Source of the DNA: Bacillota bacterium
GTDB lineage: Bacteria > Bacillota > Clostridia > Lachnospirales > Bianqueaceae
Direction: 5' to 3'
Assembly (NCBI GenBank): GCA_017620135.1
Contig: JAFZQZ010000075.1
Span: forward strand, 1 to 64,000
DNA length: 64,000 nucleotides
Made by a program: the position numbers and the translations under genes. The notes under the pieces are model-generated. The model searched no databases. It had not been told where the DNA came from and saw only the letters and a list, made by a program, of their open reading frames with translations. This document shows positions 56,333 to 57,091 of the stretch, in pieces. The first letter of the stretch is position 1. Each line of letters starts with the position of its first letter.

Positions 56333-56599
56333 ATGATCAAAGTTTACGGAATGCCCACTTGCCCTTACTGTGACTATATTTATGAGCAGATCAAAGGACG
56401 CGAAGATGAGTTCCAGTACATCAACATAGGTGAAAACATTCGCAATATGAGCGCGTTTACAAGGCTTCGTGACACGAACCCTGTTTTTGACCGTATGAAA
56501 GCGATCGGTGACGTCGGGATCCCGGCTTTTGTCCTGGAAGACGGAAGCGTCACGATCGATCCCGCGGACGTAGGCCTGATCGAGTTTGGCTCAGTGTGA
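56333..56599 (+). CDS. Glutaredoxin-like protein
   Basis: An 88-residue thioredoxin-fold protein. The redox motif CPYC is in MPTCPYCDYIYEQ, and the cis-proline segment is GDVGIPAFVLEDGSV. It probably reduces disulfides or mixed glutathione or bacillithiol adducts. GGAGGTACAAACG fixes the start at 56333. A family-3 inverted array begins 7 bp after its stop codon. Confidence 0.88.
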   Translation: MIKVYGMPTCPYCDYIYEQIKGREDEFQYINIGENIRNMSAFTRLRDTNPVFDRMKAIGDVGIPAFVLEDGSVTIDPADVGLIEFGSV

Positions 56600-57091
56600 C
56601 AAGTTGCTCCCTGAAAAGCGAGTTTTTCAAAACCACGCGTACCTGCTCCCTGAGAGGCTTGTTTTTCAAAATCGCACGTTTCATTTGCTCCGTAGAATAG
56701 GGATTTATCAAAATGACGCGTATTTCAGGCCTTCTGACTGCTTTCTGAATGACCTTTTACGCGCAGTTTTGATAGATCCCTGTTTCATGCCGCAGATGAT
56801 GCGTTCGATTTTGAAAAACGTGGATTATAGGGAGCACGAACGCGTGATTTTGAAAAAAGCTGAATTTCTACCGCCGCGTGATTTTGAAAAACATCGATTT
56901 TGCAGAGCTTGAAAAAGTACAGGACCATAGGACGGCCAAATTGACATGGGAAAGAACCAAATCAGCACGAAGGGTACAGCTGCGGGAAAAGGGCGGTATA
57001 ATCAGCTCAGAATTCTGCGAGGATAAAAGTTGACAAGCAGAGAAATTATGATATCCTGAGAAATATCAGAGAACGAAAGGAGACATGATCG
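56600..57091. repeat. Intergenic inverted array, family 3
   Basis: Three forward units of about 35 bp (56606-56640, 56645-56680, 56687-56721) start GCTCC and contain TTTTTCAAAA or its variant and CGCG. Four inverse units follow (56758-56781, 56801-56838, 56841-56874, 56875-56908), three of which contain GATTTTGAAAAA. The innermost pair (56699-56722 with 56758-56781) matches at 20 of 24 positions. TTCAG/CTGAA (56724-56728, 56745-56749) forms the apex. No convincing gene lies within. Bases 56909-57091 carry only the promoter and ribosome binding site of the next gene. Confidence 0.75.

Follow-up and report, generated by a model that had tools for sequence, protein, structure and literature searches.

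In the draft genome of a rumen-type Bacillota bacterium of the family Bianqueaceae (assembly GCA_017620135.1), a short unit recurs seven times near the end of the first 64,000 nucleotides of contig JAFZQZ010000075.1 (the stretch analyzed here, hereafter the window), three times in forward and then four times in inverse orientation. The question raised by this locus is whether such a mirror-image array is to be read as a giant RNA hairpin, as proposed in a first-pass annotation made from the sequence alone, as the ends of a transposon, or as a set of sites in double-stranded DNA. The results presented below establish that the array belongs to a family of dispersed intergenic copies, each approximately 290-300 bp long and non-coding; the element is here termed F1. 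They also indicate that F1 is probably a mobile element in the manner of bacterial interspersed mosaic elements (BIMEs) or BOX elements, with a working part that consists of a phased mirror-image array of about seven bipartite 36-bp double-stranded DNA sites predicted to bind protein.

Results

A search of the window with a unit profile built from 42 units identified exactly seven units, with scores of 19.5-31 bits, and no further unit in the 64 kb. The left arm (56605-56721, forward strand) comprises L1 (56605-56640; 31.0 bits; repeat family D1), L2 (56644-56679; 25.2 bits) and the innermost L3 (56686-56721; 29.2 bits), which is the best conserved unit between copies in the column consensus. 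A 37-bp apex (56722-56758) links it to the right arm (56759-56908, reverse strand), formed by the innermost R1 (56759-56794; 19.5 bits), R2 (56802-56836; 28.3 bits), R3 (56840-56874; 24.4 bits) and the outermost R4 (56875-56908; 27.4 bits), which abuts R3. The layout of three forward and four inverse units described in the first-pass annotation is thus recovered, and the arms turn around position ~56740, in agreement with its apex. The spacing of about 40 bp that it reported also holds: motif-to-motif distances are 39 and 42 bp in the left arm, 56 bp across the apex, and 42, 39 and 34 bp in the right arm, with the outermost inverse pair lying closer together. Since most of the genome's 13 copies share this arrangement, the layout in the window is not attributable to chance.

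The consensus of the unit is a bipartite motif, GC[TG]CC-N12-TTTTTCAAAA-TCACGCG, in which a GC box (GC[TG]CC or GCGGY) is separated by some 12 less constrained bases from a T-tract block in the center (TTTTTCAAAA), with a CACGCG box after it. Over 123 aligned units, the conserved columns are GC[T/G][C/G][C/T] at positions 2-6 and TTT[T/A]TCAAAA-N-C-N-C-N-CG at positions 19-35, and columns 13-18 are nearly free to vary. Two conserved blocks separated by a free middle have the look of a bipartite binding site, and we predict that the unit functions as one. The array does not display the identical direct repeats and unique spacers of clustered regularly interspaced short palindromic repeats (CRISPR); its units diverge and switch orientation half-way, and a CRISPR array was therefore rejected, as was a tandem repeat, in line with the first-pass annotation.

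The genome-wide search suggested in that annotation, for which the absence of any other copy of the unit would have spoken against the hairpin, returned 13 copies of F1 in the host genome. A single sister species harbors approximately seven to eight copies, some of them decayed, and in both genomes matches to the unit profile are essentially confined to arrays; no convincing unit was found outside arrays in the genus. A first sample, made up of the remaining five species of the genus, 12 further species of the family and 39 of the order, yielded no F1, and a profile search of 295 genomes of the order under stricter filters returned matches only in the same two species. When 84,980 species genomes were scanned by pattern, only the sister species and five single matches came up; none of the five has an array, and one of them (in an Oscillospiraceae bacterium) falls inside coding-like sequence. 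No F1 match was detected in 50,697 phage records, 72,556 plasmids or IMG/VR, where eight matches to a loose pattern correspond at most to isolated weak profile matches outside any array. With nothing convincing in the phage, plasmid and IMG/VR sets, spread via phages or plasmids was rejected. On these sequence comparisons, F1 appears to be a clade-specific element of two sister species.

Mean identity between F1 copies over the units is 77%, with the inner units best preserved and the outer ones more degenerate. The copy in the window is closest (87-89%) to a copy located 3' of a carB-like gene (a name assigned by reading), which is common to both species. Unit number, which the first-pass annotation proposed to compare between strains, varies between copies from two to four in the left arm and from three to five in the right. 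Orthologous arrays at the carB locus also differ in unit number between the two species: the array of the sister species (sister contig C35:27401-27745, L028) presents four left units against three, two of them with equal profile scores.

Spacing follows strict rules across copies. The distances of 39 and 42 bp are present in all 19 of the left arms, and those of 39 and 34 bp in almost every complete right arm. Length variation is concentrated at the apex, where the L3-to-R1 motif distance is 46, 56 or 57 bp, and between R1 and R2, which lie 42, 52 or 53 bp apart, so that lengths change in steps of 10-11 bp. Such steps equal one turn of the DNA helix and suggest that the helical phase of the units is preserved, an argument that is suggestive because few of these length changes are independent. 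Taken together, the conserved motif, its spacing and its phase point to double-stranded DNA sites with a fixed helical phase.

The window locus provides a record of F1 gain. The array lies immediately downstream of a glutaredoxin/thioredoxin-like gene (56333-56599, forward strand) that ends in GSV*, whereas its counterparts in the sister species and in an outgroup end in GSAGACSIEDHKSGRKGC*. F1 is absent at this locus in the sister species. The conserved 16-residue end (AGACSIEDHKSGRKGC), identical in the sister and in a more distant congener, is lost from the window gene, and approximately 48 bp of target have been replaced. Because the sister and the outgroup both keep the gene end, the sister state is ancestral and F1 arrived in the lineage of the window, where its insertion deprived the glutaredoxin-like gene of these 16 residues. 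Two cysteines were lost with this gene end, and the function of the protein may consequently be altered. Differences in occupancy are also seen elsewhere: an ordinary terminator takes the place of F1 at the C39 site in the sister species, only a short gap separates the genes at the g6C68b site in the host genome, and F1 is missing from the other species at the C45 site. By reading, seven of the 13 copies lie at convergent gene ends; enrichment between convergent genes was rejected as a significant effect and is suggestive only (P 0.08).

F1 thus resembles a miniature inverted-repeat transposable element (MITE): it is a short insertion that does not code, its halves are inverted, and it has both multiple copies and empty sites. 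We observed, however, no target-site duplication at element-free sites and no autonomous relative with the same ends. A more specific version of this idea is that F1 is a cargo-less, MITE-like derivative of a Tn7/Mu-type transposon mobilized in trans, with three transposase sites forming its left end and four its right end. In Tn7, TnsB sites follow the same inverted layout of three sites on the left and four on the right (PMC8649781), the putative sites of F1 reproduce it, and F1 did enter the window locus by insertion. Yet the F1 unit spans 36 bp instead of about 20 bp, and the element lacks fixed termini, since the outermost R4 box is degenerate and some copies carry extra units past both ends. 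F1 also carries no cargo and no transposase, and no units were found beside any gene set that could constitute an autonomous parent; no tnsB-type gene was seen beside the arrays in the loci read, and no whole-genome search for such a gene was made. Given the missing fixed termini and target-site duplication, we do not class F1 as Tn7 ends, and descent from a Tn7/Mu-type transposon seems rather improbable. By analogy, the two arms of F1 may nevertheless work as Tn7 ends do, paired in one protein complex.

Dispersed intergenic units of approximately 40 bp in both orientations are also found in BIMEs (PMC2817692), which are built from repetitive extragenic palindromic (REP) sequences, and a REP-associated tyrosine transposase (RAYT) could in principle have spread F1 as an element of the REP/BIME type. 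Consistent with this, at least one match to the Y1_Tnp domain is present in all seven of the genus genomes analyzed, scoring above the family cut-off in six of them. The units, however, are not palindromes and do not fold on their own, the 123-unit column table contains no GTAG or CGTC tag, and the two blocks of F1 (three forward, four reverse) do not alternate. Nor is a RAYT found flanking the arrays: the host has one Y1_Tnp gene, which is not accompanied by units, apparently lacks the HxH motif and adjoins ftsY; a Y1_Tnp gene also adjoins ftsY in a congener (G001) that is devoid of F1. We accordingly rejected a REP with its RAYT for this host, and consider such an origin very unlikely. The Y1_Tnp gene is single-copy beside ftsY in the host (contig C121:23065-23364, L188), the sister and another congener (L187, L189); as the host and sister proteins seem to be without HxH, it is possible that they represent a domesticated or dead RAYT.

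In its habits, F1 remains close to these elements. BIMEs likewise form intergenic clusters of ~35-40-bp units in both orientations, often 3' of genes, with turnover between related strains, and they have been suggested to act as protein-binding platforms. The BOX, RUP and SPRITE repeats of Streptococcus pneumoniae are likewise small, foldable, mobile repeats, in their case of a Firmicute and over-represented between convergent genes, and BOX elements have a modular build in which the inner modules vary in number (PMC3049150). In contrast to these repeats, F1 has no boxA/B/C-like order, all its modules are of one site type and no target-site duplication was seen. In its lifestyle F1 is BIME- or BOX-like, being intergenic, modular, arranged in two orientations and subject to turnover between close relatives (PMC2817692, PMC3049150).

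In none of the copies examined is the left-arm frame (LLREKHVFQNHA) closed, and spacings of 39 and 42 bp are multiples of three, as expected if F1 were a small protein-coding element. Third codon positions, however, are no freer to change than the others, right arms contain stops and frameshifts, and the open reading frame has no Pfam family match; on these grounds a coding function was rejected, and we regard it as scarcely credible. Rickettsia palindromic elements are dispersed palindrome-like inserts with an open frame that are able to alter the host gene. F1 differs from them in being intergenic, in truncating a gene end and in showing no sign of selection on a reading frame.

We then return to the hairpin itself. 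Folding of positions 56590-56920, as suggested in the first-pass annotation, yielded -131.2 kcal/mol on the forward strand, against -80.2 ± 5.2 kcal/mol for shuffled sequences (z -9.84), and -120.0 kcal/mol on the reverse strand (z -8.73), with no shuffle as low as the native fold on either strand. Neither of the two outcomes that the annotation named as refuting its reading, folding at the level of shuffled sequence and absence of further copies, was thus obtained. A very long imperfect duplex, as originally claimed, is thus possible, but the duplex does not appear to be what matters, for the arms are interchangeable between copies. Whichever units of the two arms are paired, arms of one copy are no more complementary than arms taken from different copies, chimeras that join the left half of one copy to the right half of another fold as well as natural copies (-112.6 versus -113.6 kcal/mol, with 23% of permutations at least as low), and no compensatory changes preserving within-copy pairing were found. 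RNA function by co-variation was therefore rejected. Six representative single units fold no better than their shuffles (z -0.23 to +0.81). Rfam provided no match for the element, its matches elsewhere in the window being a tRNA and a pemK RNA, and membership in a known RNA family was likewise rejected. Because the arms have not co-evolved, single units do not fold and no Rfam family matches, the hairpin follows from the presence of the same site in both orientations and, whether as RNA or as a cruciform, is best seen as a by-product, not as what selection preserves.

These observations also bear on the proposal that F1 encodes a long double-stranded regulatory RNA, acting as a 3' untranslated region or in antisense and cut by RNase III. 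The stability of the fold on both strands would suit such a role, and several copies begin within ~30 nt of a stop codon and could be co-transcribed with the preceding gene. Besides the lack of arm co-evolution and of an Rfam match, however, no promoter-like site was found in the element, and insertions of 10-11 bp between R1 and R2 are not accompanied by matching insertions between L2 and L3. Moreover, some copies, such as C15 and C14, appear, by reading, to be flanked by two convergent intrinsic terminators, and hence need not be transcribed. We consider a regulatory RNA quite unlikely.

F1 is not the only array family in these genomes. At two loci occupied by F1 in the host (C109 and C15), the sister species carries an array of a second family, F2, and at C45 it carries an F3-like repeat (AAAGCA...TGCTTT) instead. 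Profile comparison detected no homology of F1 to F2 or F3, and a relationship by sequence was rejected. The F2 unit, TAGCAAGGT-N19-ACCTTGCTA with a central T-tract, is exactly 37 bp long in every match of a search that allowed 8-36 inner bases, and neighboring units lie 43 or 53 bp apart, mostly in alternation, in 61 of the 63 gaps. Perfect F2 units number 26 in the host and 38 in the sister, and the remaining five congeners have none; arrays were located at L130:1638-1919 (sister contig C9:62137-62418), L137 and L153-L163. F2 half-sites show no compensatory change (eight A-C mismatches versus three A-T pairs), and the units therefore look more like DNA half-sites than RNA stems. Judged by its T-tracts, one F2 array (sister contig C12:58700-59500, L163) flips orientation half-way, with four A-type units followed by three T-type units, and in this it resembles the mirror-image F1; in some of the other F2 arrays the orientations alternate. 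The F3 family consists of 36-bp units (AAAGCA...CGTC-ATTTGATGCG...TGCTTT; L027:2857-2892, L136:626-661 and L164-L172), for which the one search covering F3 returned matches only from the two species. F3 units are mostly single, and in places adjoin another hairpin repeat.

The families may replace one another at these loci simply because all of them favor, or are tolerated at, the ends of genes. A broader interpretation, which we consider possible but doubtful, is that these genomes contain a chromosomal system of a new kind, consisting of rigidly phased arrays of ~36-37-bp sites, with end boxes and a central T-tract, whose families are interchangeable at the same loci.

Elsewhere in the window, the pemK RNA match (RF02913; 2789-2864, 67.3 bits) lies upstream of an open reading frame starting at 2932 and is possibly a toxin-antitoxin leader.

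Discussion

The analysis presented here favors F1 as a mobile intergenic array of protein-binding sites in double-stranded DNA. We take as demonstrated its copy number, layout and fixed spacing, its arrival at the window locus, where it truncated the adjacent gene, and the lack of both coding signal and arm co-evolution. We infer that a sequence-specific DNA-binding protein would occupy neighboring units, always on the same face of the helix, and that the inverted halves would allow a single nucleoprotein complex to unite both arms. The element would spread to, or be tolerated at, sites just 3' of genes, as BIME or BOX elements are.

Several points weigh against this interpretation. We found neither a binding protein nor a transposase nor an autonomous relative, and no target-site duplication was apparent at sites without the element, as judged by eye on a handful of sites. 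The outer ends of F1 are ragged, with extra decaying units, and few of the length changes behind the helical-phase argument are independent. Compared with the gene layout of the window itself, with 10 of 32 gaps, the preference for convergent gene ends falls short of significance (P 0.08), and the host and sister genomes are both draft assemblies (121 and ~80 contigs, respectively).

The small dispersed repeats of Clostridia-type gut bacteria are poorly charted, and F1 is not a REP. It also cautions that inverted DNA sites can, as a side effect, give rise to a strong RNA fold. If the system of interchangeable arrays is real, what matters would be that a locus has an array, which would serve as a nucleoprotein platform at the 3' ends of genes, with its sequence turning over like satellite DNA. 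Rigid spacing, together with the replacement of one array family by an unrelated one at shared loci, offers a clean way to ask what role gene-end arrays play.
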